Source: Acidobacteriaceae bacterium (GTDB taxonomy: Bacteria; Acidobacteriota; Terriglobia; Terriglobales; Acidobacteriaceae). Taken from it: a stretch of DNA of 52,301 bases. This document shows positions 26,195 through 46,900 of this stretch, piece by piece; the first letter of the stretch is position 1, and the number at the start of each line of letters is the position of its first letter. Where the stretch lies: assembly GCA_027452245.1 (NCBI GenBank), contig DAIDGW010000002.1, forward strand, positions 1 through 52,301, read 5' to 3'. The notes beneath the pieces were generated by a model that saw only the letters and a list, made by a program, of their open reading frames with translations, was not told the DNA's origin and made no database searches. Position numbers and translations under genes: made by a program.

Positions 26195-27082
26195 CTAAAG
26201 TTGAACTCCAGCAGTATTGGTCGATCGATATTCCGTGGGGGTCACCTTACAGATTTTCTTGAAAATACGGCAGAAATACGCAGGATCACTATAGCCGCAA
26301 CTGGCGGCAATTTCTTTCAATGTCATCTTGTAATTCTGCAGCATGAATTTCGCCCGGTTTACCCGCACCAGGTTCAGATAATCGTTGAAACGCATAAATC
26401 CTTCTTTGCGGAAGAGCCGGGAGACATGGTTGGGAGCGAGCCGGAAATGATCCGCAATAGTCTCTCGACTGACAGAAGTATGAAAATGTTCCTGCACATA
26501 CAAGCAGATGGATTCGTAGGTGCGAACTGCTTTGCGCGGACTCTGATTATGCGGTGACTTCAGCAATCGCAGGCAGGCGTGCAGCAGCGATTCGGTCAAA
26601 AGCCGCGCCAGAGGCCCTTTCGGGCTGTCGGTTGCCAGCAGTCTAAGCACAGCAAGGATGCTGTGCGTAGGTACGTCATAGCCGCCGTGGACGCTCGCCT
26701 TGACCGCGTTCGAGGGGACCTGCGTGCCTCCCTTGTGCCGCACCAGGCTGATTCCGATCTGCTTTACACCAAAAAGGAATGTCAGTACATCGACATGACC
26801 CGACCAATCTGGTTTGTTCCAGGCATGGTCCGGAACGAACACCGCGTGTCCGCGCACAGGCTTGATCGTTTCCACGCGCCCGTTATGGGCCAGCTCCATC
26901 GTGTGAGAGCCCGCGAGCGGAAGCGATAAACGAGGAAAATTTGTTACGTAAGCAAGCGGCGGAGGGACTGTGGTTCCGTCGGCGAAGTGGACCCGGCGAA
27001 TCCGCGTCTTCCGGAGATAAGTTTCGAGTTCGTGCACAATCAACCGTGCCCCCGGTGCTGGCCCCGAAACGGAGAAGTTCAC
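26195..27082 (-). CDS. AraC-family transcriptional regulator
   Basis: A 295-residue regulator. The N-terminal half is a cupin-like sugar-sensing domain (ARLIVHELETYL ... MELAHNGRVETIKPVRGHAVFVPDHAWNKP). The C-terminal half is a double HTH: VSRETIADHFRLAPNHVSRLFRKEG, then MTLKEIAASCGYSDPAYFCRIFKKICKVTPTEYR, a full match to the AraC/XylS signature. It lies directly upstream of the PTS genes and reads the same way, so it is a good candidate to control them. The 257-base gap allows a separate PTS promoter. Confidence 0.92.
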   Translation of the reverse strand: MNFSVSGPAPGARLIVHELETYLRKTRIRRVHFADGTTVPPPLAYVTNFPRLSLPLAGSHTMELAHNGRVETIKPVRGHAVFVPDHAWNKPDWSGHVDVLTFLFGVKQIGISLVRHKGGTQVPSNAVKASVHGGYDVPTHSILAVLRLLATDSPKGPLARLLTESLLHACLRLLKSPHNQSPRKAVRTYESICLYVQEHFHTSVSRETIADHFRLAPNHVSRLFRKEGFMRFNDYLNLVRVNRAKFMLQNYKMTLKEIAASCGYSDPAYFCRIFKKICKVTPTEYRSTNTAGVQL

Positions 27083-27488
27083 GGAAGGTTACGTTAGTGC
27101 AATTAATGTTAAATGTCTACTATTTCTTTTGAGCAGCACACCGTCCATACTTGCCAGCCGAATCAGGATCATCTGAATGCGAAATCACTGCATGCGTCGT
27201 GGCAGTGAACGCTGTACATATTGCAGGAAAGGGCAAGAAGAGCCGCTGTTTCAGCTAATGCAGATCCTGAATTCGGTTTTGGGAAATGGCAAGCCAGAAG
27301 TAAGCGGGAGAACGCAATGAGTCGTTAGTCCTGCGTCCTGGGCATGCGCGAAGTGCTGATTGCTCAGAGAACGGCGGTTGTTGTTGCCTTTTTCTTAAGC
27401 GTGTTGTCATCCGCGGGTTCGGTTTGGCAGGTTCAATATGGCCTGCATGCTCTAGCGGAAGGTATTCCACTTCTCCATGAGGTGCACA
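27083..27488. other. Divergent intergenic region, no gene seen
   Basis: Separates the leftward AraC gene from the rightward lipoprotein gene. The AraC-proximal 60 bases are AT-rich and could hold its promoter; on the minus strand TAGACA lies 17 bases ahead of a poor -10. Frames crossing the region have no ribosome sites or family similarity. Confidence 0.4.
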
Positions 27489-29510
27489 ATGAGCCGGAGA
27501 ATTCTGGTGTTGTTCGGGTTGTCGCTTGGACTGGCGATCCTGTCCGGGTGCAATGGTATCGACAAACTGCCGGGTTCCAGTAGCGGTTCTCTTTCCGTAC
27601 AAATGGTGCAGGCTCCGCCGGGAGGACTCATGGAGGGGCAAACGGCAGGTATCGTTGCCAATGTCCTGAACGATACTGCAAACGAAGGGGTGACTTGGAG
27701 TTGCGCGCCGGCTGCAGCATGCGGAACGTTTAATCCCACCACGACCGGCTATCAGGTCGGAACCGTCTATACCGCGCCGAAGTCGGGACCAGCCGGCAGT
27801 TTATATCTTCCGGTCACGATCACCGCGACTTCGGTTTCTGACAAGAGCCAGTCCGCCAGTGCAACTACGCTGGTCGGTGTCGCAACCCCGGCTCTGCTGC
27901 AAGGCCAGTATGCTTTCGTGCTCGAAGGGTTCGCGTCCTTCGGAATGGTGGGAAGCATTACCTTGGACGGGAAGGGAAACGTCGTCAGCGGGGAAGGAGA
28001 CGCATCGGCCAATGGTTTCTATAGCACAATTCCTTCGATTACCGGGACCTATACCCTCGACCCCACGGGGCATGGGACGTTAGCACTTAGCCTCAACAAT
28101 ACAGGCTGCTGCGGGACGCTGGCGCAGACTCACTCGATCACGTGTACCTCCGTCTCAAAGAACGCGGTGTGTACACATCTGCTGATCTCGGAGGCCGACC
28201 AATTTAATGGACTAACCATCGGCGGTATCGGCAGCATGGATCTCCAATCAGCTGGTCCGAACTTTACCGCCGCTCAAGTTTCCGGAGGGTACTCATTCAC
28301 GCTGATAGGGTTCAGTTCTGCCGCCGTTAAGTCGTCCGGAGGCTCAGGTTTGAATGGGAGTTGGGGAGGAGTGTTTAGCGCCGACGGCGTGGGCACGATC
28401 ACTAACGGTACCTTTGACACCAGCACCGCAGGCGGGGCCCCCAATTACAGTTCCATTCCATTTACCGGATCCTTCACTCCGCCAGACGCAAATGGCCGCG
28501 GAGTTCTCTCTTTCACCACGAACGGTGGAACCGACTACGCCTATTACATCGTGACACCAGAGGTGTTGCGCATCACCTCTATTTCCAATACGAGCTATGC
28601 AGGCAATACAGGCAGCGCTTACGGTCAAGGTTCGGTAGGTACCACCAATGCCGCCCTAAATGGCAGCTATGTCTTCGGCGATCTCGGCTTCGATGGGAGC
28701 GGTAACGCCATGGGGGCCGCCGGGCAATTCACGGCAGACGGTACAGGCAGCGTAAGCGCAGGGATCATGGATTTGAATGACTCGGGAAATTCCGGGGCAC
28801 TAAGTCTCGGTCTTTCCTGGGAGGGGTCGACCTATTCGATATCAGGAAGTGCGCGCGGCACCATCACTGGACCTTCGGGGCAGACCTATAACATCTATCT
28901 TACCGATCCTAACCTCAACCTTTTCGATCCTAACAGCAGCACCGGAGGCGGCGGAGCGCTGTTCCTTGAGACTGACAACACGTACAGCACAATCGGAATG
29001 CTGGTGCCTCAACCCAAGCCTTCCTCGGCAGCCTTGCAAGGAGCTTATGGATTGATGTTGTCGGATCAGAACAATCCACCGCACTCTGACGGTGGCTTTG
29101 TCGGCGATTTCGTCGTAACTCCTGGCAGCAATTCCTTTGCCGGTGAAGGAGCTTTCCAGGGTCAGGGACAGAACTCGGCCACCTTAGTCGTAGGACCTGT
29201 CGCAGGAACTTTTATCGCTGACAGCAAGAACCCGGGCCGCTTTAGTGGCAATATTTCGACGACCCCCGCTTTCCCGAATGGATCTCTCGCCGGTAACACG
29301 GCGGGTTCGGAGGCAGTGTCCTGTTACCTCGCCAGCCCGAACGAAGGATTCATAGTCGAGACCGATACCGTTGCTCCGGTAACTGGAACTCTAATCGTGC
29401 AAGATCCTCCAACCGGAACGAAGGGAGCGGCGATGCCAGTCCGTACTTCCGCACAGTTCACCGCCGCGCCTGTGGGCTCTGAGCATGGGCATCCCAGGAG
29501 TTCACGATGA
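27489..29510 (+). CDS. Repeat-containing lipoprotein
   Basis: From the ATG at 27489 (GAGGTG just upstream; ATG 27477 is an alternative) the protein is 673 residues. It has a lipoprotein signal (ILVLFGLSLGLAILSGC) with the lipobox Cys in LSGC. An N-terminal Ig-like domain (about 30-125) is followed by four repeats of about 125 residues. Each opens with L-x-G-x-Y-x-F/L and contains G-x-F-x-x-D-G-x-G-x-(V/I), starting near residues 135, 262, 390 and 515. I recognise this as an acidobacterial surface-protein pattern but know no function. It heads a run of five exported-protein genes and is followed 47 bases later by a TonB receptor. Confidence 0.83.
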   Translation: MSRRILVLFGLSLGLAILSGCNGIDKLPGSSSGSLSVQMVQAPPGGLMEGQTAGIVANVLNDTANEGVTWSCAPAAACGTFNPTTTGYQVGTVYTAPKSGPAGSLYLPVTITATSVSDKSQSASATTLVGVATPALLQGQYAFVLEGFASFGMVGSITLDGKGNVVSGEGDASANGFYSTIPSITGTYTLDPTGHGTLALSLNNTGCCGTLAQTHSITCTSVSKNAVCTHLLISEADQFNGLTIGGIGSMDLQSAGPNFTAAQVSGGYSFTLIGFSSAAVKSSGGSGLNGSWGGVFSADGVGTITNGTFDTSTAGGAPNYSSIPFTGSFTPPDANGRGVLSFTTNGGTDYAYYIVTPEVLRITSISNTSYAGNTGSAYGQGSVGTTNAALNGSYVFGDLGFDGSGNAMGAAGQFTADGTGSVSAGIMDLNDSGNSGALSLGLSWEGSTYSISGSARGTITGPSGQTYNIYLTDPNLNLFDPNSSTGGGGALFLETDNTYSTIGMLVPQPKPSSAALQGAYGLMLSDQNNPPHSDGGFVGDFVVTPGSNSFAGEGAFQGQGQNSATLVVGPVAGTFIADSKNPGRFSGNISTTPAFPNGSLAGNTAGSEAVSCYLASPNEGFIVETDTVAPVTGTLIVQDPPTGTKGAAMPVRTSAQFTAAPVGSEHGHPRSSR

Positions 29511-29557
29511 CGGCCGTTCGCATCGCCCGCGTTAGCCAAAATCTCAGGAGGACGTCA

Positions 29558-32500
29558 ATGACAGCTTCGTCAAGCTTCAGAACAGATGACCGTCTCGTAA
29601 GCAGCCGAGTTCTGGTCGTTTTTGCATTGGCTGCGTGCCTCCTGCTGCTCATGTTCCCGGTGGGTGCAAGCGCGCAGGAATTCCGCGCTACCCTGACGGG
29701 TCAGGTGACCGACCCATCAGGCGCGGTCATTCCCAACGCGACGGTTACCGCGACCAACACGCAGACTGGTTCGCTATACACAGCCAAGACAAGCAATGCT
29801 GGCGTCTACTACATCCCGTATGTCATTCCCGGTGTTTATCGCGTGGAAGCGAGCGCAGACGGTTTTAAGACACTGGTTCAGGAAGCCGTGACGCTGCTCG
29901 CCGGAAAATATTTCGGCCAGAACTTTACTCTGCAGATTGGAACCACGTCCGAGAAGATTGAAGTCACCGCCGCACCTCCTACGATCGAAACCGCTAATGG
30001 ATCGGGAGGCACGATTCTCGATCAGAAGACGATCGAGAACGTTCCAGTTCTGGGAAACCAGGTGTACAACCTGATCGCCACTACTCCTGGCAGCCAGTTC
30101 ACTGGAAGTTCTCAGGGGAGAAGTTGGGACAACGACAATGCCTACATTATAGGCGGGGGTGTCGATCCTACTGGACAAGACAATACAGGGAATTCGGGCG
30201 GATTCAACCAATTCACTCTCAACGGTACCAACATCACCCAGCAAATCAGTTACGGCAATCAAGGTGCGGGCACTTGGGACGTTTCGCCTACGCTGGACTC
30301 TATCCAGGAAGTTAACGTGATGACCAATACCTATGATGCGCGCTATGGACGCACCACGGGCGGCACGGTCAATGTGGTCACCAAGAATGGGACCAATGAT
30401 TTTCACGGAGAGGCATTCGAATTCTATAAAGATGGCGGTCTGTTCGATGCCAACACGATGGATAACGTCTTTATTTCTGGTCTGCCGACGCAGCAACAGG
30501 TCGAAAATCAGTTTGGGGGAAACTTTGGCGGCCCGATCATCAAAAACAAAGTCTGGTTTTTCTACAGCTTTGAAGGTTACCGGCAATCCATCTATGGGAC
30601 CTTGACAGGCAATCTGCCTCCCGCATACTTACGTCCTGGGTATAACGGGAATTCCGGAGTTGATTTCGGCCTCATTAAGAAGTTGGATCCCGGCGGCGCT
30701 AATGACCCTTATGTCAAATATGGCCTCACCCTCTTTCAACCCGGGGACAGTACGAACACCAGTAATCCGAACAATGCTGTGTGCGGCCAGTTCTCATCGA
30801 GTCCAGGTGCCCCGGCCAGTGTCTGCGGGGATGGCACAAACATCATCAACAATGTAAACGCTTTCAGCGGGGGAACTAACGGCGGTGCCCTGATTCCAGG
30901 CTCCCGGATCAACAACACCGCCATGCTCATGTTGAAGTCCGGCTACATTCCTCTGCCGAACGTGGGCGGAGCTCAGAATTATGTTGGCGGCTTCGGCGAG
31001 CCTGCCAATTATTTCGCGGTGACGCCCGACTATACCAATTACGACCAGCACATGTTTCGGGTGGACTACAACACAAGCGATAAGACGAAGTGGTACAGCT
31101 TCTTCGGAATGCAGCGCGGACATGAAAACCGAAACCAGAACGGTTTACCGGGGCTTCTCGCGCATGGAGTGTTTTTCAGCCGCGAAAGTTACACGGCAAC
31201 CCAGGACATGACGCATACGTTTTCACCAACTTTCCTGGGTGATTTCAAACTGTCGATGAGCCGTCTCCAAAACTCGAATCAGGATGGCATCCTTTCCGCA
31301 GGCAAGCCCGGGAGTACGATCGGAATCCACATTACACCTCCTCCGGTGACCAGCCTCAACACAGTGCCTGAAGTCTGGGTCAATGGTTTTCCAGATCCGA
31401 ACAGTAGCGGTGACGGGCCAATCTTCGGCAATTCGGATGATCTGGAGGCCTCGACTAATATCGAGTTCGATACGGATTTCACCAAGGAGAAAGGGGCTCA
31501 CGATCTTCACTTCGGCGGCGGCATCTTTTACTACACGTACGGAAACCCTATCAACGGCACGGTCACCAATAATGCCAATGGCTCATTCACCTTCAGTGGG
31601 CAGTGGACGCAGTTCGATCCGCTCAATTCGAACTGTTACATGCCAAGCAGTCAAGGTCTGACGCCCAATGCGGGTTGCAGTGGAACCTATGCGCCGAATG
31701 GTTCCGGTTGGGCGGACTTCCTGCTCGGGTTGCCGAGCAGCGGCAACGTGAATTGGAATGACTCGCTATTCGACTATCAACCGGTGTGGAATCTTTATTT
31801 CCAGGATGACTGGAGAATTACTCATCACCTTACGATAAACCTCGGACTGCGTTATGACGTGCAGATGGGCCTGAAGGAGCGCTACAACGAGTTACCTCGA
31901 GGTTTCTGCGAAACTTGCGTTAATCCCATCACTTATGACGGCTCTTACCAGGCAAATATAGCGAATGCTGCCAATGTTGCGGCATGGAAGGCGGCCGGGG
32001 TCAACACAGCCGCTATGTCGCACGTCTTAGGTACAATCGCGCCGGCCGGAATTAATGGTGCGCCCCGCAACGCCTATAACACCGATTGGAGCAACATCGC
32101 TCCCCGCATAGGTTTTGCCTGGGCGCTTAATCCGAATACCGTAATTCGCGGCGGATGGGGCTTCTTCTATGGCGGTGGCCTGGAGGGTGGGTCGCCCATC
32201 GGGTACCAGCAACAGACAAATTATTTGGCTTCGACCGATGGCAGCGCTGACCCGAATCAGGGCGGAGCAACCCCAGGGACGCTTGCGGCGGGGCCGTACG
32301 GCAAAGGCGTTCCGTTCCCGGCGAGTGCCGAATATCCCCTAGGGCTACTGCCTCCTGTGGGATCCCAAGGTCTTCCGCTGGCTGGCGTGGGTACCGGCGG
32401 GTTACAGGTAGACAGCCCGCAGCGGAAGATTCCCCGCACACAAATGGTGTCGGCTGGCGTGCAGCACGCACTCCCTGGAGACACCGCGCTCGACATACAT

Positions 32501-33526
32501 TTCGCCGGTAACTATACTGACCGGCTTCGTGCGACGCTGTGGAATAACGGAATTATCAATTACGCGCAGTTGCAATACGCGCTGGCTCCCGGAAGCAGCG
32601 TCTATAGCCAATTGTTGCCGAATCCGTACTATGGCGTCTTTTCCATGTCGTTCCCCGGTGGTTGCGGGCAGTCGCCTACGATTCCTGCGCTCGCGCTATT
32701 ACTGCCATGGTCACAGTATTGCGGATTCAACCATGCGCCTCCGGTGGGCATTTACAACGCACCCATCGGCAAGAATTGGTACAACGCGTTGGAGGCCAAA
32801 CTTACCAAACGCACTTCTCATGGGTTGACCATGAATTTGGCCTACACGTGGTCGAAGAATATGGACGGCAGTGGATACCAGAATGGATATCCCTATCAGG
32901 ATGCAAACGAAGTCCACTGGATTTCAGCTTTCGACCGCACTAGCGTTTTCGCTTTCACAGGGGTGTACGACGTACCCGTCGGGAAGGGGCGAACCTTCCT
33001 CCCTGCTCCACCAAAAGTCGTCGATTATGCAATTGGAGGATGGTCGCTGGGATGGTCGTTCGGTGCGCAGAGTGGCACGCCGCTTAGTGTCAATAATGGA
33101 TTCAACTACAGTTGCCCGTTCACATCGCCGACCGGTACCTCTGTCAGGCAGTGGCTGAATCCACAGCTGACGTCTTCGAGTTGCTTCAGCAGCGTACCGC
33201 ATATCGGCGGCTCGCCCTATACCTACAACACGACCCCGGGCTACATCGCGGCGGTGCGGACCTACACCGTGCCGGATCTCGATCTGTCACTGCAGAAGAC
33301 CTTCAAAATTACAGAGCGATTCAACTTCTCTCTGCGTGGAGAAGCATTCAATGCGTTGAACTCGGTGTTGCTCGGTGGCCCGGACAACACTCCCACCGAC
33401 GGACCAGCGAGTCTGTTCTATAACACCACCACGAAGAAATCCTACTGGACAGGATTTGGCACGGTTGGACCGAACCAGCAGAACTTCCCCAGGAGCCTGC
33501 GGGTTTCAGGAAAGATCACTTTCTGA
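29558..33526 (+). CDS. Oar-like TonB-dependent receptor, large
   Basis: The ATG at 29558 has AGGAGG six bases upstream and is preferred to the in-frame ATG at 29507, which overlaps the preceding stop. The 1322-residue protein has a signal segment (VLVVFALAACLLLLMFPVGASAQ) and a carboxypeptidase-regulatory-like domain (LTGQVTDPSGAVIPNATVTA ... GVYRVEASADGFK). A plug region (VPVLGNQVYNLIATTPG, IQEVNVMTNTYDARYGRTTG) precedes a barrel ending ...FPRSLRVSGKITF with a terminal Phe. Many Asn/Gly-rich extracellular loops account for the length. It is a second receptor of the same class as the one at 16965 but clearly divergent, set among exported hydrolases, so its cargo may be their products. Confidence 0.92.
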   Translation: MTASSSFRTDDRLVSSRVLVVFALAACLLLLMFPVGASAQEFRATLTGQVTDPSGAVIPNATVTATNTQTGSLYTAKTSNAGVYYIPYVIPGVYRVEASADGFKTLVQEAVTLLAGKYFGQNFTLQIGTTSEKIEVTAAPPTIETANGSGGTILDQKTIENVPVLGNQVYNLIATTPGSQFTGSSQGRSWDNDNAYIIGGGVDPTGQDNTGNSGGFNQFTLNGTNITQQISYGNQGAGTWDVSPTLDSIQEVNVMTNTYDARYGRTTGGTVNVVTKNGTNDFHGEAFEFYKDGGLFDANTMDNVFISGLPTQQQVENQFGGNFGGPIIKNKVWFFYSFEGYRQSIYGTLTGNLPPAYLRPGYNGNSGVDFGLIKKLDPGGANDPYVKYGLTLFQPGDSTNTSNPNNAVCGQFSSSPGAPASVCGDGTNIINNVNAFSGGTNGGALIPGSRINNTAMLMLKSGYIPLPNVGGAQNYVGGFGEPANYFAVTPDYTNYDQHMFRVDYNTSDKTKWYSFFGMQRGHENRNQNGLPGLLAHGVFFSRESYTATQDMTHTFSPTFLGDFKLSMSRLQNSNQDGILSAGKPGSTIGIHITPPPVTSLNTVPEVWVNGFPDPNSSGDGPIFGNSDDLEASTNIEFDTDFTKEKGAHDLHFGGGIFYYTYGNPINGTVTNNANGSFTFSGQWTQFDPLNSNCYMPSSQGLTPNAGCSGTYAPNGSGWADFLLGLPSSGNVNWNDSLFDYQPVWNLYFQDDWRITHHLTINLGLRYDVQMGLKERYNELPRGFCETCVNPITYDGSYQANIANAANVAAWKAAGVNTAAMSHVLGTIAPAGINGAPRNAYNTDWSNIAPRIGFAWALNPNTVIRGGWGFFYGGGLEGGSPIGYQQQTNYLASTDGSADPNQGGATPGTLAAGPYGKGVPFPASAEYPLGLLPPVGSQGLPLAGVGTGGLQVDSPQRKIPRTQMVSAGVQHALPGDTALDIHFAGNYTDRLRATLWNNGIINYAQLQYALAPGSSVYSQLLPNPYYGVFSMSFPGGCGQSPTIPALALLLPWSQYCGFNHAPPVGIYNAPIGKNWYNALEAKLTKRTSHGLTMNLAYTWSKNMDGSGYQNGYPYQDANEVHWISAFDRTSVFAFTGVYDVPVGKGRTFLPAPPKVVDYAIGGWSLGWSFGAQSGTPLSVNNGFNYSCPFTSPTGTSVRQWLNPQLTSSSCFSSVPHIGGSPYTYNTTPGYIAAVRTYTVPDLDLSLQKTFKITERFNFSLRGEAFNALNSVLLGGPDNTPTDGPASLFYNTTTKKSYWTGFGTVGPNQQNFPRSLRVSGKITF

Positions 33527-33604: not shown

Positions 33605-34951
33605 ATGACAATACAAAAATCCTGGCTGGTGGTCGCAGCGTCATACATGGCCATGCTTGTAGCCCTCCTATTTCTGGCAATACCTTCGCGTGCGCAAAAT
33701 TTGCAGCTCGATCTTTCCTCGAAATCAGGTCTCTGTGGCGGCCAGCAGTGCTTCAACGTGGCTGGCCTGTTCACCACGGGGACGAAGTTCCTGGGCACAA
33801 CCGGTATGGACAATGGCAATAACTGCACGCCGACCGCGCCCTATACGAATTGTCCGGATGCATACTCTTCCACTCAGTTGGGATTGTCTTCGACGAATCC
33901 GCCGACGCTGACTCCGGCGTCACTCGGCCTCCCATTTACTTTCGGAACTGTAAATACGACGAGCTGTGGTCCTTCGACGAGTAGTGTGTGTATTCAGGAT
34001 GTGGTGAACTACACGACCAGTGGAGTTGTAATTACGCTCGCCCCCGCCGATCAGACGATTTATTCCACAATGATCCTTCTCGGTACGGCTGTGAATGGAA
34101 GCCATTCCGCAAGTATTACTGCTACTTACACCGACAGTACAACCAACGTTTTTACCCAGACATTAAGTGATTGGTGTGGATTCGGAGGTAATTCCCACGA
34201 ATCGATCGCGGTTGGCGGAATCAACCGCATCAACGCGGACGGCACCCTGAACGGCGCAAACTGCAATTTGTATGCATATACCCTCCCCCTTGACTACACA
34301 AGAAACCTGCAAAGCATCACTCTGACCGACCTCGATGGTTCAGGCGATTCCTTTGCCACCGCAGTTACACTGAAACCGCCGAGCTACACCATTGATGGTG
34401 GTACAGCACATCCAACCTCCGTTGCTCCGGGCGCGAGCGCAACCGCAACGGTTACGGTCAACCCGCAACCTGGTTATAGCGGAACAATTGCCCTAACCTG
34501 CACCATCAGTCCGTCGATCGGAACCACGTTCGCAACAACTGCGCCGACCTGCACTCTGAACCCCAATTCAGTCACGGTGACCACAACAGAGAGTTCGGCC
34601 CCGACCACGAGTCTGACGTTTACAGCCTCGACCCCGGCTCAATCGCAGTTGCATCAGCGCCGCAACATCTTCTACTACGCGTTCTGGCTGGTCCCGGGCC
34701 TAGCGTTGACCGGGCTTCCTTTCGGTTCTCGGAAGGTGCGACGGAAATGGCTGCCGGGCCTGCTGCTTGCAGTGCTTTTCTATGCGATCCTGTCTTCCTC
34801 GGGCTGCGTCAGTTCCAAACAGTTGGGCAACGTCGGGACTCCGCCAGGACAATACACGGTGACTATTACCGGCATGGATGAGAAAGGTCTAACACAAGCC
34901 AGCAATCCGAGTGGCACCTCGAACACCGTCGTTTTGACAGTTACCCAGTAA
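33605..34951 (+). CDS. Exported protein with shared SDW module and C-terminal TM-Cys tail
   Basis: The ATG at 33605 lies five bases after AGGAGG; the resulting 448-residue protein starts with a signal peptide ending SRAQ. Residues about 30-255 contain a beta-rich module with TYTDSTTNVFTQTLSDW, ESIAVGG and LYAYTLPLDYTRNLQSI, resembling parts of the protease at 35096 and the mannosidase at 39106. An Ig-like stretch (about 260-350) rich in Thr and Ser follows. The C-terminus has two hydrophobic segments (357-376 and about 383-400), a Cys at 401 and a tail GTPPGQYTVTITGMDEKG, like that of the protease. No enzymatic motif is seen; function unknown. Confidence 0.82.
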   Translation: MTIQKSWLVVAASYMAMLVALLFLAIPSRAQNLQLDLSSKSGLCGGQQCFNVAGLFTTGTKFLGTTGMDNGNNCTPTAPYTNCPDAYSSTQLGLSSTNPPTLTPASLGLPFTFGTVNTTSCGPSTSSVCIQDVVNYTTSGVVITLAPADQTIYSTMILLGTAVNGSHSASITATYTDSTTNVFTQTLSDWCGFGGNSHESIAVGGINRINADGTLNGANCNLYAYTLPLDYTRNLQSITLTDLDGSGDSFATAVTLKPPSYTIDGGTAHPTSVAPGASATATVTVNPQPGYSGTIALTCTISPSIGTTFATTAPTCTLNPNSVTVTTTESSAPTTSLTFTASTPAQSQLHQRRNIFYYAFWLVPGLALTGLPFGSRKVRRKWLPGLLLAVLFYAILSSSGCVSSKQLGNVGTPPGQYTVTITGMDEKGLTQASNPSGTSNTVVLTVTQ

Positions 34952-34969
34952 TGTCGCTGATCACTTAGA

Positions 34970-34997
34970 GGATGGCGACGCGGAAGCTTCGCCATCC
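34970..34997 (+). terminator. Stem-loop after the gene at 33605
   Basis: GGATGGCGA and TCGCCATCC pair perfectly over 9 bp with a 10-base loop, 18 bases after the stop codon. No U-run follows, so it may be a weak or factor-assisted terminator or an mRNA-stabilising hairpin within the operon. Confidence 0.45.
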
Positions 34998-35095
34998 AAC
35001 CTTGACTTCGGCGAGTGAGCCCTATGGGTTCCTGGCCCGGGACGCGTTCGTCCGCCTGTAGACCGTGATTCACAGAATCCATCGAGCACTCGACC

Positions 35096-38000
35096 ATGAA
35101 CAAGCTCTCAGCTTATTTCTTCCCGTTGATTGCCGCTCTCGTATTTGTTCTGCTTCCCGAATCGGCGACAGCGCAGCAGAGGCAAGTGCTGGCAACGCAG
35201 GTTGCGGCCCCGGCAGGTGCGCAAATGCTTGGGAGAGTTCCGCGATCGCAACAGTTGAAGTTGGCGATTTCCTTGCCGCTGCGCAACCCAGAACAACTCG
35301 ATAGATTGCTGCAGCAGCTTTACGATCCTAGCAGCCCCAGCTACCGCCATTTCCTGACCGTCGAACAATTCCAGGAGCAATTTTCGCCCAGTGTTGAGGA
35401 CTATCAAAGCGTCATCAGCTTTGCGCATTCGAGCGGCCTCAACGTGACGCACACGTTCGCCAATCGCCTTGTTCTGGACGTCACGGGCAGTGTTGGCGCG
35501 ATTGAGCAGGCATTTCAGATTCGGATGTTTACGTACCAACATCCGGCCGAAAAGCGAACTTATTACGCGCCCGATGTTGAGCCCACAGTCGAGCAAGGCG
35601 TTCGCATCCTAAGTGTCGATGGTTTGAACAACTTCAGCCTTCCCCATCCTATGCTGAAGAAAGCACCGAACTCCGCCGTTCACACCAACACGACCGGATC
35701 GGGTGCTGGAGGAGAGTTTCTTGGCAGCGATATGCGGGCGGCCTATGGTGGCGGAACGACACTAGACGGAAGTGGTCAGGTGGTCGGGCTTATCGAACTT
35801 GGACCGTACCGCTTGAGCGATGTGCTGAACTACTTCAGCACTCTCAATCAGTCGCTCAATGTGCCCATCGTCAACGTCCTTATTGGAGTTGACGGCGTCT
35901 GCGGAGTTGGTTGTGATGATGGCGAGGAGGCAATCGACATTCAGCAGGCGATTGCCATGGCTCCGAACCTCTCCGCCTTGATCGTTTATGAGGCCTATAG
36001 CGCCAGCACGGACGCGCTCAGCGCTTACACGCAAGCCGCCAGTGACAATATTGCCAAACAACTGAGCATTTCCTTTGGATGGGGAGGTACTCCTGGTTCC
36101 GAGCCCGGCTACGAACAGATTTTCAAGGAACTTGCTGTCCAGGGGCAGAGTTCGTTTGTTGCCTCGGGCGACTCCGGCGGAAACTCGGGTGGTGGCGGGT
36201 ATCCTGGCAATAGCCCCAATATCACCGATGCAGGTGGAACTGATCTAACAACCGCGAGTCCGGGAGGTTCGTGGTCATCGGAAACTGGCTGGGTCGGTAG
36301 TGGAGGCGGTTGGAACACGTCATCTCCAATTCCTTCGGGTTTACCGAACTTCCTGTGGAATCAGACTACGGCGATCAATTCCAGCAACGGCGGTGATTCC
36401 AGTTTCCGCAACATTCCGGATGTTTCGGCGGAGGCGAATACAGATAATTATTTCTGCTCGAACGGTTCCTGCCAGGGAGGAATCGGAGGGACGAGCCTGG
36501 CGGCCCCGCGCTGGGCGGCCTTCGTAGCCTTGATCAATCAGCAGGCTGCTGCTAATGCCAATGCGACGGGTGGCAATCCGAGTCTTGGCCTTTTAAATCC
36601 GACCATCTATCCCGTTGGATTGGGGCAGAACAGCAATGCTCCCTATAGTTCGGTGTTCCACGACATTATGTCGGGCAGCGACCCCAGCAGCAGTACTCCC
36701 CCGCTCACCTGCACGATTGGCAGTCTTGGATGCCTGGATGTGAATGGCGAAGGGCTAGAGGGTTTCAACTCCGAAACCGGCTTTGACCTGGTGACAGGAT
36801 GGGGCAGCCCCAACGGGCCAACCATCTTCAATGCTCTTTTTCCGGCGACCTCAAATGCGAACTTTTCGATGGCAGCATCGCCCTCAACCCTGATGCTGGC
36901 CCCCGGAGGCTCACAGCAAGCCTCCATCTCTGTTTCGCCAGTTCATGGCTTCAACGCGACTACAAATCTGGTTGTGGTAATTCCAGGCACAGGTAATCCC
37001 GGTTATGCGCCGACCGGTCTTTCAGCGACGCTAAGTTCCTCAGCCATTCCCGCCGGCGGCAGCCCGGTGACACTTACAGTTCAGACTACAAGTGCCACCC
37101 CTGGAGGGACCTATGTCATCGCGGTTGTGGGTACCAGCGGAAGTCTCACCCAGACTGCATATGTAGCTGTCGAACTGCCGGCATTCGTGGGAGTCACCAC
37201 CGCACAGTCGGGAATCTCTGCTAGGCAAGGCGGTACGACGACAGCCACTATCGCCGCGACTACAATTAACGGATTCAATGGCGCGATCACTTTCAACGCT
37301 AGTGGCTTGCCGAGCGGTGTAACTGCCAGTTTTACGTCGGTGAATTCCAATACCGCAACCCTGACATTTGTGGCGGCGGCGAATGCGACCCTGACCGGAG
37401 CCGGCAACCCCGCGGCCATCATTGTCACCGGTACCGCGGCAGGTTTTGCCGCGCAATCCACTCAACTCAATCTATTCGTGAACCCTGCTGCTAGCGGCGG
37501 CACTGGCAGTCCGGTTGATCTCAGCAGCGGCTATAACGTATACGCGTTTTATAACGACGCCAACGAATCTTCCATCACCGCCAGCAATAGCTTGGATGGC
37601 GTGGGTTACGTGTATTCGGCGAATCTGTTGGGTTCGGGAGTGGATTTCAACGGGACGCAATTTGCTCTCGGACCGCCCAATCAAGCTGATTCCCTATCTG
37701 ACTTCGCTGGCTCAATCCCGCTTCCGTCCGGATACTACACTTCTCTGGAACTGCTTGCGACCGGAATTGAGGGTAATCAGGCATCCCAGCCGATTGCCGT
37801 TACCTATGCTGATGGATCCAGCGGACACTTTAGCCAGAGCTTCAGCGACTGGTGCAGCGCACTGAACGGCAACGGTTGCGTCAGCACAGGAAGTAACTCC
37901 GGCGAGTCGGTAGCAATGGCCATGCCTTATCGTGACAGTGCCGGTGGGCCAGACAATCGTGTCTTTTATCTATATCACTATTCCTTGCCCCTCAACACCG

Positions 38001-38923
38001 ACTTGAGTGTCCAGAGCGTCTCCTTGCCCAGCAATCGTGATGTAGTGGTGCTCGCTGCGACGCTGAGCGGCCCAGTCACAACCGGATTTGTAGTCGCAGC
38101 ATCTGGCAACCCCATTAGTTTGGCCCAGGGCGGAAAGAGTACAACCACAATCACGGTTACGCCCACTGGGGGATTTACAGGAGCCGTCAGTTTGTCGGTT
38201 TCAGGACTTCCCACAGGCGTCTCCGGGTCGTTCAGTCCCACGAGCACGAGCACGACGAGTGTGCTCACAATTACGGCCAATTCTTCGGCCACGATCGGAC
38301 CGGCTTCGGTCACTGTCACTGGCACCTCCGGGCAGTTCACGAAATTGATGACGCTCGATCTGACCGTCACTGCTCCGGCCACATACAGCCTCTCTACGAG
38401 CGCGCCGACGCAAGGAACCATCAGCCCCGGAGGATCATCGCAAGCCACGGTCACAATTGTCTCCACCAACGGCTACACGGGAAGCGTTACCCTTAATTGC
38501 AGTATTTCTCCGGCAGTTACTCCCGCCCCATCCTGCTCTTTCGGAAGTACTAACCCAGTGAGTGTAACTGCAAGCGGTGGTACTGCCATGCTGACCTTCA
38601 CTTCGGTGGGACCAGTTGCAATGACAATTCGGCCTCAGATCTGGCTGGCCTTGATGCTCCCCATTCCAGGATTGGCGCTCTTTGGCGGATTTGGTCGTCG
38701 TGGCTTTCAGCGCAACAGGAAAATCCTGGGTTGCATTGTGCTCTGGTTCATTCTCTCAACACTGTTGATCCTTCCCGCGTGTGGCGGGAGTAGCGGAGGA
38801 GGTGGTGGCGGCGGAAGCAGCGGGACACCTGCCGGCGCTTACACAATTTCGATTACAGGGAAGGACGCACAAGGGATAACTCAGTCCAACACCGCGGCAA
38901 CCGTAACTATCAGAGTCAACTAA
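35096..38923 (+). CDS. S53 (sedolisin/kumamolisin) protease with Ig-like and SDW modules
   Basis: A 1275-residue exported protein. A signal peptide (FFPLIAALVFVLLPESATA) and a pro-kumamolisin activation domain at about 50-190 (LPLRNPEQLDRLLQQLYDPS, YRHFLTVEQF) precede a sedolisin catalytic domain at about 205-585. Its catalytic Glu277 and Asp281 are in GEEAIDIQQA, the oxyanion Asp359 in SGDSGG and the nucleophile Ser467 in GGTSLAAP; TGWGSPNG suggests the calcium site. The family consists of acid-active serine-carboxyl endopeptidases. C-terminal modules are Ig-like domains, the SDW module at about 806-992 (YADGSSGHFSQSFSDW, GESVA, LPSNRDVVVLAATL), two more Ig-like domains, two hydrophobic segments from about 1183, Cys near 1228, a Gly-rich run and GTPAGAYTISITGKDAQG. 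Probably displayed on or released from the cell surface. Confidence 0.92.
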   Translation: MNKLSAYFFPLIAALVFVLLPESATAQQRQVLATQVAAPAGAQMLGRVPRSQQLKLAISLPLRNPEQLDRLLQQLYDPSSPSYRHFLTVEQFQEQFSPSVEDYQSVISFAHSSGLNVTHTFANRLVLDVTGSVGAIEQAFQIRMFTYQHPAEKRTYYAPDVEPTVEQGVRILSVDGLNNFSLPHPMLKKAPNSAVHTNTTGSGAGGEFLGSDMRAAYGGGTTLDGSGQVVGLIELGPYRLSDVLNYFSTLNQSLNVPIVNVLIGVDGVCGVGCDDGEEAIDIQQAIAMAPNLSALIVYEAYSASTDALSAYTQAASDNIAKQLSISFGWGGTPGSEPGYEQIFKELAVQGQSSFVASGDSGGNSGGGGYPGNSPNITDAGGTDLTTASPGGSWSSETGWVGSGGGWNTSSPIPSGLPNFLWNQTTAINSSNGGDSSFRNIPDVSAEANTDNYFCSNGSCQGGIGGTSLAAPRWAAFVALINQQAAANANATGGNPSLGLLNPTIYPVGLGQNSNAPYSSVFHDIMSGSDPSSSTPPLTCTIGSLGCLDVNGEGLEGFNSETGFDLVTGWGSPNGPTIFNALFPATSNANFSMAASPSTLMLAPGGSQQASISVSPVHGFNATTNLVVVIPGTGNPGYAPTGLSATLSSSAIPAGGSPVTLTVQTTSATPGGTYVIAVVGTSGSLTQTAYVAVELPAFVGVTTAQSGISARQGGTTTATIAATTINGFNGAITFNASGLPSGVTASFTSVNSNTATLTFVAAANATLTGAGNPAAIIVTGTAAGFAAQSTQLNLFVNPAASGGTGSPVDLSSGYNVYAFYNDANESSITASNSLDGVGYVYSANLLGSGVDFNGTQFALGPPNQADSLSDFAGSIPLPSGYYTSLELLATGIEGNQASQPIAVTYADGSSGHFSQSFSDWCSALNGNGCVSTGSNSGESVAMAMPYRDSAGGPDNRVFYLYHYSLPLNTDLSVQSVSLPSNRDVVVLAATLSGPVTTGFVVAASGNPISLAQGGKSTTTITVTPTGGFTGAVSLSVSGLPTGVSGSFSPTSTSTTSVLTITANSSATIGPASVTVTGTSGQFTKLMTLDLTVTAPATYSLSTSAPTQGTISPGGSSQATVTIVSTNGYTGSVTLNCSISPAVTPAPSCSFGSTNPVSVTASGGTAMLTFTSVGPVAMTIRPQIWLALMLPIPGLALFGGFGRRGFQRNRKILGCIVLWFILSTLLILPACGGSSGGGGGGGSSGTPAGAYTISITGKDAQGITQSNTAATVTIRVN

Positions 38924-39105
38924 TGCGGAATCAGATGACGGATATGCCTCGAGGATAGACTGCCAGTGCCGAGCATATGTGACCAGCTGCGGGATCGCCG
39001 TCGCGTGAATTGTACCCAGACGTTCGTCTTCAGCTGAACCGGGCCGGTCTCAGTAGTGAGTAAGACAGCGTCCGGCAAGTGTTATAGGTGATTGAAGGAA
39101 CAAAT

Positions 39106-42100
39106 ATGAAAACGATTGTCAGGATGTCTTTCGCTGTTCTCATCCTTTTTAATGTCGTTGCAGCGCAAATTGCCAACCAGCAAAAATCAACTCCAAACGA
39201 GCGGGACTCTAGTCAGACTGCAGCGCAACCCGATCTCACCAAGCAGCCTACTCTCTATGTGGTTGGTTATGCCCACCTGGACACGGAATGGCGCTGGGAA
39301 TATCCGCAGGTCATTGACGAATATATCCGCAAGACCATGGAGGACAATTTCAAGCTGTTCGACAAATATCCTCATTATGTGTTCAATTTCAGCGGCGCCA
39401 ATCGCTACCGTTTCATGAAGGAGTACTATCCTGCCGATTTTGCCCTGGTTAAAAAGTACGTGGCCGAAGGGCGCTGGTATCCAGCTGGTTCTTCCATGGA
39501 AGAGGGCGATGTCAATGCTCCCAGTGCCGAGGCGATTATCCGGCAGGTCCTTTACGGCAACGAGTGGTTCCGCAGGGAATTCGGCAAATCCAGTGCGGAA
39601 TTTATGCTGCCCGATTGCTTCGGATTCCCCGCCTCTCTGCCAACGATTCTGGCGCACGCAGGAGTGAAAGGATTTTCGACTCAGAAGCTGGTTTGGGGAT
39701 CCTCGGCTCCGGGCGGCGGGCCACAATCTCTCGAGAAAACTCCAGAAGGCACTCCCTTCAACGTTGGCGTTTGGGTCGGGCCAGATGGCGAAAGCGTTCT
39801 GGCAGGTCTCAATCCGGGGAGCTATAGTGGCGGCATTGAGACTGACCTCAGCAAGCCATTGCCTCCCGAACCACCCAGTGCAGCTTTGAGCGACCTGCAG
39901 AAGCAAATCGGAGAGCTGCAAAGCAAGCTGCAGAAGGTCCGGCAGAATGGCCAGCAAATAAGCGAAAAAGACATTCAGCAATTCATCTCTATGCGTCGCG
40001 AACAGGGCGCGTTAGCCGATGCGCAGCGTGAGCGCCAGTTCAACCGCTATCAGAATGATTGGGCGGCACGGGTCGAGCAGAACGGCAAAATCAGCGGGGT
40101 TTTCACCGACTATCACTACTATGGCACCGGCGATATTGGAGGAACTCCGGATGAAGAATCAGTAAAACGGCTGGAAGCGATCGTGACCAGAGGGACAGTC
40201 GATCTGCCGCCGGTTGGGGAATTCTTCTATCGTGGGGAACAGCATCCCGCATGGCCTGAAGTAAAAGTGGGCGACGGGCCGATTCACGTCATCTCGTCGG
40301 CTGCTGATCAGATGTTTCTCGACATCACTCCAGCAGAAGAATCGGGCCTCCCGCGTTACACGGGGGAAATGGAATTAACCAACCATTCCGCCGGGTCGCT
40401 CACCTCGCAGGCTTATCAAAAACGGTGGATCCGGAAAGAAGAGTTGCTCGCCGATGCCGCTGAGAAGGCATCGGTTGCAGCCCAGTGGTTGGGTGCACGG
40501 CCGTATCCTCTTGAGCGACTGAATAACGCATGGACTCTGGCCATGGGCGCACACTTCCACGACATCGCGGCTGGAACAGCTACTCCCCGAGCTTACGAAT
40601 TTGCCTGGAACGACGATGTCATAGCGATGAATCAATTTGCCGGAGTTCTAGCTAATGCAACTGAAGCAATCGCGGCCGGTCTGGACACCGAGGGCAACGG
40701 TGTACCTATCGTCGTCTATAACCCACTCAACGTCGCGCGGGAAGATGTTGTTGAAGCGAAGGTTGATTTTTCTGGCAGACTGCCGAACTCGGCGTACGTC
40801 ACTGCTCCCGATGGAAAGGACCTGCCGGCGCAGGTTGCCGGCGACAAAATCCTGTTTGTGGCCAGGGTGCCATCGGTTGGCTATGCTGTCTATGAAGTCC
40901 ATGCAGGAACAGTTCCAGCAGGGAAGTCGGCACTGCACGTTTCAAATAACGAACTGGAGAATTCTTATTACCGGGTCATACTGAACTCCGACGGAGATGT
41001 TGCCAGCATCTTCGATAAGGAAATCGGCAAAGAACTGCTCTCCGCTCCAGTTCGTCTCGCGATCTCTTACGATAATCCGCAGCAATGGCCAGCCTGGAAC
41101 ATGGATTGGGACCAGGAGCAGGCTGCACCCAAAGCTTATGTCTCTGGGCCAGTTCAGATTCGAGTCGTAGAGAGCGGTCCCGTGCGCGTGGCCATCGAGG
41201 TTTCCCGCGAAACTGCTGGCTCCCGCTTTGTACAGACCATTAGCCTCTCCGCAGGAGACGCAGGCAAGCGAGTCGAATTCGGCAACATCGTCGACTGGAA
41301 CACTCGCCAATCGAATCTGAAAGCGACGTTCCCGCTAACGGCTTCGAACCGCGTAGCGACATACAACTTGGATATCGGCACCATTCAACGCCCAACGGCC
41401 CAGCCCAGAAAGTTTGAAGTCGGGACCCATCAATGGATCGATCTCACGGATATGAGTGGCACTTTCGGCGCCACCGTGCTGACCGATTGCAAGAATGGCT
41501 CCGATAAGCCGAACGATAACACCATCCGCCTCACATTGATCCGCACTCCAGGGACGGCCGGCGGTTATTCTGACCAGGGAACGCAGGACATAGGACATCA
41601 CGAGTTTACCTACGGAATTGCCGGACATGTTTTGGGATGGCGCGATGCACAAACCGACTGGCAAGCGGAGCGATTGAATGCTCCCTTGGTTGCATTTCAG
41701 ACTTTGCGACACGCGGGGACACTCGGACGTAATTTCTCTCTGCTGAAGGTCAGCAATCCGCGAATTCGAGTTCTCGCAGTGAAGAAGGCTGAGGATAGCG
41801 ACGAGACCATTGTGCGGCTGGTCGAACTGGACGGAAAACCTGCAAATGATGTGAAAGTAAGTTTCGCCGCGCCCATTACCGCGGCGCGCGAAGTAAATGG
41901 ACAGGAGCAGCCCGTGGGCCCAGCGACGGTTAAGAATGGCGGATTAGTCACGTCGTTCAGTGCGTACCAGCCCCGCACTTTTGCGATTCGGTTGGGAGTT
42001 CCGGCAACCAAAGTGGCCGCCGTGCATTCGGCTGATGTCCCGCTCCATTATGACCTCGCCACTGCCAGCAATGACGGCGATCGCTCCCAAGCCGGATTCG

Positions 42101-43524
42101 ACCGCAAGGGCAATTCCTATCCTGCCGAGATGCTTCCTTCGCATATCACATTCAACGATGTGCAATTCAATCTGGCTCCGGCAAAAACCGGCTCTGCCAA
42201 TGCACTCGTAGCCCATGGACAGAACATCGTTCTCCCGCAAGGCCCGTACAATCGCGTATATGTACTGGCGGCCTCCGCCGATGGTGACCAGCAGGCGACA
42301 TTCCAGGTCGCCAACAAGAATGTCGAACTTAATATTCAAAACTGGGACGGGTTCATTGGACAGTGGGATGTCCGCGAGTGGGGTTCACATGATACAGAGC
42401 ACGACAACTACGGGGATATGATTGGCCTGAAACCGGGATATATCAAGCGAGCTGACCTGGCTTGGTACTGCAACCATCATCACAATGCCGCCGGTCAAAA
42501 TGTGGCATACGCCTATTCCTATCTGTTTGCTTATGCGATTGACTTACCCGCTGGCGCCCGAAACATCAAGTTGCCAGACAATGACAAGATTCGCATCCTC
42601 GCCGTCTCGGTGGCGAACGAGAATCCAGAGATCAAACCCGTGCAGCCACTTTATGACGTTCTGGCTTCCTCAAATGAGGGAGCTGCCGATTTCACCGTAT
42701 CATCCTCATCCACAACCCTCGCCGTTCCGGAAGGCAAAAGCGTGGCCAGCCGAGTTCTCGTAATGCCTCGAGGGAGATTTGCCGGCGATGTTGAATTAAG
42801 CGCTACTGGATTGCCGCAAGGAGTTACGGCCACGTTTGACCCGCCGAGCACCAGCGGTGCCAGTGTGCTGACCCTAACGACTCAGCGAGGCACATCTGCC
42901 GGCACAACCGACGTGGTGATTCATGCGAAATCGGGTAGGTTATCGCATACTGCTACGGTCACGCTAACGGTCACTCCCATTATTTCTGGTACCGTTCCGA
43001 TTGACCTGCGTTCCTCATACAACGTCACCGGCATCTATAAAGAGGACTCGAAGTTTACACCACAAGAGAGCCTTGACGGCGATGGTTTTGCCTTTTCCGA
43101 ACAGGTGACCGGCACGGAGCAAGTAGGAGACGGAGTGGTGTTCAGTTTGGGTCCCGCTAATGCACCCGATATGGTTGCGGACAAAACGGTTTCGCTTCCA
43201 GCGGGCAGATTCAAAGGCGTTGCAATCCTTGCGTTGGCAGTGAATGGCGATCAGGAAATGCAAACTTTCACTGTCACGTATTCCGATGGATCGGCCTCTT
43301 CGTTCACGCAGAACATGAGTGACTGGGCGGCCCCTGGAAATTTTCCTGGAGAGTCTGTCGCCTTCACTGTCCCTTATCGAATTGACAGCACGGGGGCAAA
43401 AGACAGCCGCACCTTTTACAGCTACGCTTATCGTTTCAATCTCGACAGCAGCAAGACGGTACAGAGCATCAGTTTCCCAAGTAATCGCGAAGTGTTGATC
43501 CTGGGGGCGGCGCTTATTCCGTGA
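39106..43524 (+). CDS. Exported GH38 alpha-mannosidase with two C-terminal SDW-like modules
   Basis: The ATG at 39106 with GAAGGA upstream is preferred to the GTG at 39088. The 1472-residue protein has a signal peptide ([13 protein letters not shown]) and a glycoside hydrolase 38 catalytic part. Zinc ligands His57 and Asp59 are in [10 protein letters not shown], Asp170 in LPDCFGFP is the expected nucleophile and zinc ligand, and His485 is in [10 protein letters not shown] charged, coiled-coil-like insert lies at about 265-325. GH38 middle and beta domains run to about 980. A divergent SDW-like module follows at about 996-1180, an Ig-like domain at about 1195-1290 and a clear SDW module at 1296-1472 ([34 protein letters not shown]). 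Likely trims alpha-mannosides from extracellular glycans or glycoproteins. Confidence 0.92.
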
Positions 43525-43911: not shown

Positions 43912-46900
43912 TCAGGTCGGAAGATTGACCATCTTGGCGATTTTCGGCCAGCGATGGCTGGCTCGCAGCCCTTTGCAGATCACAAAGCCGAGATAGAACC
44001 TCATCGAGGAATCGCGTTGTTCCAACGCCTTTTCGACATAATCGGATCCCTTGTCGATTTCACCGCAGATAAGATGAAAAAGCGCACGGGCGCGGGCATC
44101 GCCAAGCGCCTCTCCGGAACCAAGCTCCTTTGCGATCGATCTTGACTCCTCTTCTTCCCCGTTGCGCCGCAGGAGTGCGGCGAGCAGGCCAACAGTATCA
44201 GGAAACCAGCGTCCAACCGCATAGGCGCGCCGCGCGATCTTCAATGCCTCAGCGATCTCACCCTTATCGGCATGGATCATCACCATCGAAGCGAGGGCGA
44301 CAACCTGGTTCGGGTCGAGTTCCACTACTTTCTTTAATTGCTCGAGCGCCTCGTCGACGCGCCCCGCGGGCTGAAGATAGGCATGCAGGTTCATGTGGGC
44401 CCACACGTCGAGGGGGTCTTGTTCAATGGCACGCTCGGCCAACCTGATTGCCTCATCCGTATTTCCGTGCAAATACAGAAAACCGCCGTACATGGGTTTG
44501 ACCAGCTCAAAACTTGCTTGTTTCGCCATCGGAAATTCAAAGTACTTCTCGGCTGTGGCCCAATCCGAGTCAAACAGGGCGGCCAGATAACCCAAGAGCG
44601 CATGCCCGTCCGCATGGGAAGGATCAATGTCTAATGCTCGCTGAACTTCGGCTCGCGCTGCGCACACGCCCTCGTGGACAGAATGCTGGCCGAAGTGCGC
44701 TAAGGTCATCCAGTAAAATGCCAGTCCGATGTGCGCCATGCCAAAAGCCGGGTCGAGCTCAATGGCTTGTTCATAGTACCGGCGGGCCAATTCGAGCGAC
44801 TCTGGTGTGACTTTGACCTGTTGCTGCCTGCCCTTCAGATAGGCGTCATAGGCCTCGATCTTCGGCGTATAGCGCTGAGGCGCAGCTTCGGGAGAAAGCT
44901 TCACTCGCAGCGCTCTGGCAATCGCCACTGAGATCTCATCCTGCACCGCAAAGATGTCGCTCAGTTCCCGGTCGTATCGTTCCGACCAGAGATGTGATCC
45001 GTCGGCGGCATTGATCAGCTGCGCGGTGACGCGAATGCGGCTTCCCGAGCGGCGCACGCTACCTTCAAGAACCGTGCTGACACCGAGTGTTTCCGCAATG
45101 CCGCGGATGTCCTGCTCTTTGCCGCGAAAGGCGAAAGCCGAAGTACGGGCGATAACTTTCAGCGCTGGAATCTGCGCCAGATGGTTGATGATCTCTTCGG
45201 CGAGCCCATCGCTGAAATAGTCCTGCTCCTTGTCGTCGCTCATGTTGGCGAAGGGCAGAACGGCGATGGAGGGAGCGACTGTAACCGGGCCGCTGGGAGC
45301 CGGTTTACGATTTTCCGAAATCTCCAGGCCGGCTTTGCCCAATCCGTCCATGAAGTGATCGACCAATTCCGGCTCGAACCATTTCTGGAGTTCATGGCCC
45401 GCACGGGTCGCAAAATCGGGCTTACAAACAAGCAACTCCTTTAGCGCCCTATGGGCCGCCTCATGCTCTCTGAGCTGCCCGTGGGCTGCGGCCAAGACGA
45501 TGGGAGTCCAGAAGTACCCGGGCATTTGGATACGCAGGGCAGTATCAACGGCAGCGTGGTAGTCGCGAGTACGATAGGCGTTGAATACTTTCGGCAGCCA
45601 ATACCAGCCGGGGAAGTTCGGATGGAGCCTCATGGCGGAGTCGGCCACGTCACAGCCTCTCTGCCATTCTCCCGAGCATGCCAACAGAATTCCAATCAAA
45701 GCAACAGTGGCGCCATCCATAGGATTGAGGGCGATCGTACGCTCGGCGACCGGCCGAAGGGCTTGCCACTCATGATTCTGAAATAGGCTCTGCGCAAGCG
45801 CCTGCAGGGCGAGCGCGCTGGCGGGCGCAAGTTCTGCCGACCGCTGCGCTGCGGTAGTTGCACGGCCCAGCGCGTCGGGCCGCACGTTGAACCCGAACCA
45901 TTCCTCGTCTGCGTAAAGCGTGGCCAGCATTGCCCAACAATCACCTGCGTCCGGCACCTCGCGCACGACTCGTTCCAGAAGGTCGCGGCAGGCGGCGTGC
46001 CCCGGCGCATTCATATTTTCGTGCAAACTAAAAACGCGGAACACGGCTTCGTAGGGGGTGAGTTGATCGTCATTCTTTTTCCGGATTGCCGCGCTGATAC
46101 TGCGCTGCAGAATGCCGTGCTGGTCGGCGATGGTCGAGACGATGCGCGGGACAAGCTGATCCTCCAAGGCGAAAATCTGATCCGGCTGGAAGGGGAGACC
46201 GAAGGTTTCCGCCCATAAGTGAGTGCCAGTACTGGCATCGACCAGCTGCACCGCCAAGCGAATAGCAGAGCCGGCTTGGCGCAAGCTGCCTTCCATCACG
46301 TACCGCGCTCCGAGCTCTTTGCCAATCGCGCGGACGTCGCCGGATTCGCTCGAGTATTTCGCAGTTGAGCCACGCGCGATCACTCGCAGATAGGAGAAGC
46401 GCGAAAGCCCGGTAACGACTTCCTCGGATAATCCTTCAGTGAGAGCCTTTAGGTCCTGATTACTGCCTGAGTACTTGAAGGGCAGCACGGCGACCCAGAA
46501 ACCTTCATCGGCACGGGTTGCGCCGGATGCCATCCTCGCCTGCACCACGCCAGATGAAACCGCCGGAGTCGCATGGGAGTTCGGAATCACTAGTCCGGCG
46601 AGGCGCAAATCGCCGAGCATCTTTTCCACCATCTCTGGCAACCACCACTTCTCGAGTTCTTGCTGCGCGATTGTGGCGAAATCGTGACGAAGAGCCAGCA
46701 GGTCGCGCATTGCACCGCGTGCTAGATCGGCATGGCCCAGTTGGCTGTGGATGACGCAGAGGGCCACTTGCGCTGTCCAGAGATCGGACATGTTGACCCT
46801 GAGGGCATATTGCAGGGCGCGTTCGCCGTCGTTCTGGCGATAAGCATTGATGGCGAGTGGTAGCCAATACCATCCGGGATGGTTGGGATTCAGTTGCGTG

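Follow-up and report, generated by a model that had tools for sequence, protein, structure and literature searches.

Why would three neighbouring genes for an Ig-like protein, a peptidase and an alpha-mannosidase share one beta-rich block, and what might such a block do? The window studied here is the whole stretch of DNA analysed, 52,301 nt from an Acidobacteriaceae bacterium (GCA_027452245.1, contig DAIDGW010000002.1, positions 1 to 52,301). A preliminary description of it had proposed that the three proteins carry an unnamed module, here called the SDW module, acting as a common targeting, binding or surface-attachment unit. The three genes close a same-strand run in which they follow a lipoprotein-like gene and an outer-membrane barrel gene, and its features are as follows.

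27477-29510, + strand: lipoprotein-like gene, head of the barrel/Ig/S53/GH38 run
29507..33526, + strand: CarboxypepD_reg and outer-membrane beta-barrel protein, a TonB-type transporter of Acidobacteria (PF25183, PF13620)
33605..34951, + strand: Ig protein with a leader-like start, a divergent SDW module and a split Ig-like invert_tail anchor (from the ORF list)
33749..34333, + strand: SDW module, divergent Ig-protein subtype (49-row profile, E 1.5e-34)
34607..34876, + strand: NF058595 invert_tail region of the Ig protein, residues 335-424 (49.9 bits)
35096..38923, + strand: S53 (kumamolisin-type) peptidase with Ig-like domains, an SDW module and an invert_tail anchor (PF09286, E 4.6e-28)
37511..38071, + strand: SDW module of the S53 protein, residues 806-992 (Smith-Waterman, profiles, own-genome search)
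38585..38911, + strand: NF058595 invert_tail region of the S53 protein, residues 1164-1272 (53.5 bits)
39088..43524, + strand: GH38 alpha-mannosidase with two module copies (PF01074, PF07748, PF17677, PF09261)
42043..42618, + strand: GHm1, internal divergent copy, GH38 residues 986-1177 (3-row profile, hhalign)
42997..43521, + strand: C-terminal SDW module of the GH38 protein, residues 1304-1478 (Smith-Waterman, profiles, own-genome search; AlphaFold2 model)

The four Pfam models above cut-off in the GH38 protein represent its N-terminal catalytic, middle and C-terminal domains, and its residue numbers count from the GTG at 39088. Read by eye, the Ig, S53 and GH38 proteins all have leader-like starts. 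An AraC-type gene (26195-27082, - strand), divergent from the lipoprotein-like gene, is a possible regulator of the cluster. Elsewhere in the window, within 21985-25937 (- strand), an HPr-enzyme I-EIIA fusion (PTS) adjoins a polytopic protein that we read as a fructose-type EIIC and that has no Pfam match at 0.001. A divergent pair lies at 43912-48726 (- strand) and 48897-51215 (+ strand); the plus-strand gene encodes a Ser/Thr kinase with TPR, and the minus-strand gene, similar to it by eye, has three 'VLPF' blocks.

The shared block is a complete domain in all three proteins

The block common to the Ig, S53 and GH38 proteins is real. The S53 copy aligns to the C-terminal GH38 copy with a Smith-Waterman score of 351, against a mean of 34.8 (sd 5.8, maximum 56) for 300 shuffles (z 54), and the two find each other at E 1.7e-35 in a search of their own genome, which holds a further copy at G000:C217 (L002). 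Aligned to the other two, the Ig copy reaches scores of 138 and 140 (z 15 and 19). It had been described as matching only partly, which proved too weak, because it occupies positions 10-168 of the 180 in the 49-row profile and reaches up to 54% identity over 170 columns with its nearest relatives, the second copies of the S53 proteins L009 and L011. A tree groups it with these same second copies (support 100/100) and places the window's S53 copy as sister to that of L026 (100/99).

The range first given for the S53 copy, about residues 806-992, agrees with ours, and that given for the GH38 copy, 1296-1472, was right to about eight residues; six of these reflect the choice of start codon, the earlier range fitting a start six codons later, as in P0011 (1472 aa). 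Among 49 aligned copies the letters SDW are present in 48; Y1398, S1411, E1422 and G1436 (GH38 numbering) are invariant, and G1387, Q1408, D1412, W1413 and Y1448 are kept in 48.

A second, divergent copy inside the alpha-mannosidase

The GH38 protein contains another copy, GHm1, directly behind Glyco_hydro38C2, which the preliminary description had missed. A 3-row SDW profile found it at E 5e-11, and in Smith-Waterman shuffles it reached z 13.8 against the S53 copy and 11.4 against the C-terminal GH38 copy, with no match to the Ig copy when the two were compared directly (z 0.9). Our first set of proteins (120 listed relatives from a GH38-based search and four local ones) carries the module in all 124, and 91 of them passed a filter for the two-copy spacing of the window's GH38 protein. 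The GHm1 profile made from these 91 matched SDW, from which the GH38 rows had been removed, at 99.3% in hhalign (E 2.4e-20, 165 columns); controls against SDW gave 0.8% for reversed columns, 0.1-0.9% for five column shuffles, 3.7% for the Ig spacer and 0.2% for the Glyco_hydro38C2 region. We do not count as evidence of homology the 97% obtained between GHm1 and either the Ig spacer or the Glyco_hydro38C2 region, which involves 18-19 end columns where the cut stretches overlap.

Homologous to SDW over those 165 columns, GHm1 differs from it in sequence (27% identity), in a large insert with W-x-GFIGQW-D, and in its company: strong matches occurred only in GH38 frames in the sample, in that all 19 open frames with a GHm1 match below 1e-15 in 199 genomes also carry the GH38 catalytic domain, as matched by contig and frame length. 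Origin of the C-terminal copy by local duplication of GHm1 was rejected because 12 C-terminal GH38 copies group within the SDW side of the tree and 10 GHm1 copies group apart (both 100/100); the tree, rooted at its midpoint, gives no direction between GHm1 and SDW.

The modelled SDW fold is that of AziU2

The SDW block is a single all-beta domain of about 175 residues, a beta-sandwich. The one copy modelled with confidence, the C-terminal GH38 copy, has an AlphaFold2 model (m021bdae02188) with a pLDDT of 97.5, and the S53 and Ig copies are predicted, from sequence homology, to share its fold. Over the full domain this is the fold of AziU2/Azi28 from the azinomycin aziridine synthase complex (PDB 7wuw, 7wux, 8gs1), at 17% identity to SDW. 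Profile similarity connects SDW, GHm1 and AziU2 over most of the domain, the match between GHm1 and AziU2 being limited to positions 30-95 of 213. By computed homology and fold the three form one superfamily, for which the libraries searched contain no separate name. Whereas the SDW module is an appendage of exported enzymes, AziU2 is a stand-alone chain, little more than the module itself, that is complexed with AziU3 in an antibiotic pathway and has F in place of the W of SDW. The AlphaFold 3 paper, in the passage that concerns it, calls the AziU3/U2 complex 'a novel fold', chain unspecified (PMC11168924).

The SDW fold is also of the broad beta-sandwich type seen in carbohydrate-binding modules, its close match being AziU2; CBM29, CBM8, CBM35 and CBM6 show similarity to it far below that of AziU2, and a Pfam scan of the module segments, with E values up to 10 allowed, turned up no carbohydrate-binding module. 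Several other matches were dismissed as chance: CsgC (E 0.012) and ferritin (E 0.25), which the 3-row profile drew from PDB sequences and the 49-row profile did not, PF10610 Tafi-CsgC on the GH38 module (E 0.071), and NF009890 on GHm1 (E 0.24).

No existing name describes the domain

The claim that the module has no established name holds: Pfam and NCBIfam contain no model that names the window copies, which draw only chance-level matches, and we found no published name in the open-licence literature. 'Unnamed' is true of the SDW domain as a whole and not of every strand. In some relatives Pfam's Rib model (PF08428) touches about 20-55 of the 175 residues, around the V-T-Y-x-D-G-T strand and its hairpin, mostly below its cut-off of 27 bits. 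Its score is 28.6 bits for the four copies of P0003 taken together and 27.1 bits in a two-copy stretch of L009; it is 23.6-26.3 bits, below cut-off, in P0126, P0132, P0135, P0139 and the whole of L009, and lower still in L031 and L027. The matches span at most model positions 17-69 of 76, covering the last part on one hairpin; no single stretch passes the cut-off alone in the whole relatives scored, and the window copies have no Rib match. The cut-off is just reached in P0003 and L009 only when hairpin fragments of tandem SDW modules add up, and such sums are a likely source of wrong 'Rib' labels in tandem SDW proteins.

These hairpin scores, together with a Rib-type structure (6s5y) that was a weak third match of our profile (E 0.097), are what might be expected if the block were a low-complexity beta-strand resemblance or a named domain that had been overlooked. 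We consider this the least probable of the readings weighed here, and a very improbable one. A z of 54 against 300 shuffles, the presence of the module in 124 of 124 proteins and in the 143 and 1628 relatives described below, and an hhalign value of 99.3% where columns that were reversed or shuffled give 0.1-0.9% all speak against chance resemblance, and Rib was rejected as a name for the module since it accounts for one hairpin while the full 175-residue length matches AziU2. In streptomycetes, which belong to a different phylum from the window proteins, the C-terminal domain of a GH92 'lectin' (L105) and of a GDSL protein (L106) is an SDW module (102 and 90 bits, letters SDW kept). The label 'lectin_1' is no description of it because NF035929 covers residues 153-927 only and stops before the module, at 1031-1212.

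Spread, partners and anchors

The GH38-based search yielded 143 relatives among 1109 candidates, and a search based on L002 yielded 1628 among 5979 candidates, these being proteins of similar length only. A scan of a collection of 84,980 species gave 34 loci, in Acidobacteria, Massilia, Nevskia, Rhodanobacter, Verrucomicrobia, Planctomycetes and one unassigned bin; a plasmid scan (8 records) added Streptomyces, Embleya and Arthrobacter, and a second (11 records: Streptomyces 9, Burkholderia 2) added Burkholderia. At least 52 of 396 genomes of the window's phylum have an SDW match at 1e-6, with no more than 8 candidates scored in each genome. Among these 396, matches below 1e-50 occur only in the window's own family, where the module has a scattered distribution (16 of 120 genomes at 1e-20). 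Most of the weaker matches lie in frames of 1084-1826 aa and, like GHm1, span roughly profile positions 5-115; G048, matched at positions 3-179, and short frames of G229 and G330 are exceptions.

Thirty loci were fetched, five of which were set aside as second copies in the same frame, and the other 25 were read within the fetched flanks. Their partners are an L002-type catalytic region (7), S53 (4), GH38 (4), GH92 (2), GH76 (1) and GH18 (1, marginal at 29.7 bits against a cut-off of 29.6); six have no partner assignment, four of the nine loci left over after the first partner scan having been tested further. The L002-type catalytic-looking region (L002 115-2040) gave no significant match in Pfam or among PDB sequences, and it contains a D-x-D-D-E stretch that we take to be reminiscent of chitinase-type barrels. 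Among the 120 listed relatives of the L002-based search this region is found in 38 and GH76, by hand count, in 25. The module is C-terminal in 106 of 120 listed relatives, N-terminal in the Ig protein and mid-chain in the S53 protein, with tandem copies of two to four in relatives and an Ig/NEW3-like spacer ahead of it in the cases examined closely. In L012, L017 and L023 it is internal to an ABC-2-permease-like protein, after the first hydrophobic segment and before the second (the Pfam matches of L012 are below cut-off), directly behind half a BamE-like motif (Pfam E 0.0007-0.002, below cut-off). We also note a cluster at L103 (G418:C85) that encodes GH76 and GH31 together with two module carriers, a GH18-type protein that has two copies and an F5/8C protein that has one.

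The window Ig and S53 proteins have, C-terminal to SDW and as a separate region, the named putative anchor NF058595 invert_tail ('lipo-invert'), above its curated cut-off of 37 bits; the GH38 protein falls below that cut-off (21.5 bits). Both regions (34607-34876 and 38585-38911) look by eye like an Ig-like end domain split by a Cys-bearing hydrophobic hairpin, and on this reading the anchor would therefore lie inside the Ig fold. Could SDW itself be a surface-attachment or secretion-sorting domain? Its mostly C-terminal position (the 106 of 120 above) and the leader-like starts of the three window proteins would suit such a role, which we nevertheless regard as very unlikely. Attachment is disfavoured as the main role because two of the three proteins have separate NF058595 anchors, and the module's N-terminal, mid-chain and permease-internal positions, its occurrence in actinobacteria, which are without an outer membrane of this kind, and its homology to AziU2, whose chain consists of little else, all point the same way. 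Of the original proposal, a shared, mobile, beta-rich accessory unit is supported, and surface attachment as its main role is not supported.

Mannan-degrading neighbours

When bacteria degrade fungal alpha-mannan, enzymes of GH92, GH76 and GH38 are involved (PMC9213526). We compared seven SDW-GH38 loci (the window, L029, L033, L099, L100, L101 and L102). Four of them, L033, L099, L100 and L101, have an adjoining GH92 and a GH76 within about 10 kb; the window, L029 and L102 are without a GH92 neighbour and a nearby GH76. Neither GH92 nor GH76 was found in the window's genome (97.6% complete), and the window does not hold the full set of an alpha-mannan utilisation locus (GH38, GH92, GH76 and a TonB-type transporter). 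A barrel 44-48% identical to that of the window lies directly upstream of SDW-GH38 in five of the six comparator loci, and the sixth, L029, has a partial match of 29% (352 residues). The window's own barrel is separated from its GH38 gene by the Ig and S53 genes. In the seven genomes that have both SDW and GH92, and among the GH92 places listed, 5 of 15 SDW loci have a separate GH92 gene no more than 10 kb away against an expected 0.37, with loci and GH92 genes counted by hand and one of the five GH92 genes having two internal stop codons. A genome-wide link of SDW with GH92 or GH76 was not significant across 120 genomes (P 0.30 and 0.14); only the neighbourhood is enriched.

What the module may do

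We favour, at a probability of about one in two, the reading that SDW serves exported proteins as a reusable accessory domain, often tandem-duplicated and often C-terminal, that would hold an enzyme on a glycan or glycoprotein target or orient it there. Carbohydrate binding is a plausible, putative function of the domain, and the target would most likely be rich in alpha-mannose, for example fungal mannan or mannoprotein. The window encodes side by side a barrel of transporter type, an Ig protein and a peptidase that both carry the putative anchor, and an alpha-mannosidase; by sharing the module, the last three might gather on the same target.

The main rival is that SDW is a structural or protein-protein interface domain, which would pack on a catalytic domain or a partner and stabilise or position it with no sugar binding. 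It owes this standing to the only solved relative found, which is a chain of an enzyme complex (AziU2 was crystallised, by the entry titles, as one chain of AziU3/U2), and to work on NnGH92, a multidomain GH92 of Neobacillus novalis: in the passages concerned, deletion of the C-terminal CBM32 abolished activity, which the authors ascribed to loss of integrity, and the accessory domains contributed more to keeping the enzyme intact than to its affinity for mannan (PMC10167667). That all 19 frames with strong GHm1 matches are GH38 frames is likewise as expected of an integral part. A partner-specific interface is nonetheless ill-suited to a module that occurs on many unrelated catalytic domains, in tandems of two to four and inside a permease-like protein, and we hold it to be a possible but clearly less probable account than glycan or glycoprotein holding.

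More speculatively still, and in a scenario that we think rather unlikely, the superfamily may go back to a domain integral to an alpha-mannosidase, or to an ancestor common to both. The domain would later have become a free glycan-holding module that reached five or more phyla, found its way into permease-like proteins and, in a single lineage of actinobacteria, been turned into half of the aziridine-forming enzyme; the tree gives no root for the order of these events. If that were so, SDW would represent a new family of carbohydrate-binding modules with alpha-mannan or mannoprotein as its target, and the AziU2 half would have well over a thousand relatives, many of them in soil bacteria.

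The domain is present on well over 1,600 database proteins and is practically unlabelled, many of the listed ones being called 'hypothetical protein', and naming it would aid the annotation of its carriers. If binding to alpha-mannan were true, work on fungal walls and high-mannose glycoproteins would gain a ready-made tool in the module. Kinship with AziU2 provides a solved structure on which its residues can be mapped, and provides an unusual biosynthetic enzyme subunit with an evolutionary source.
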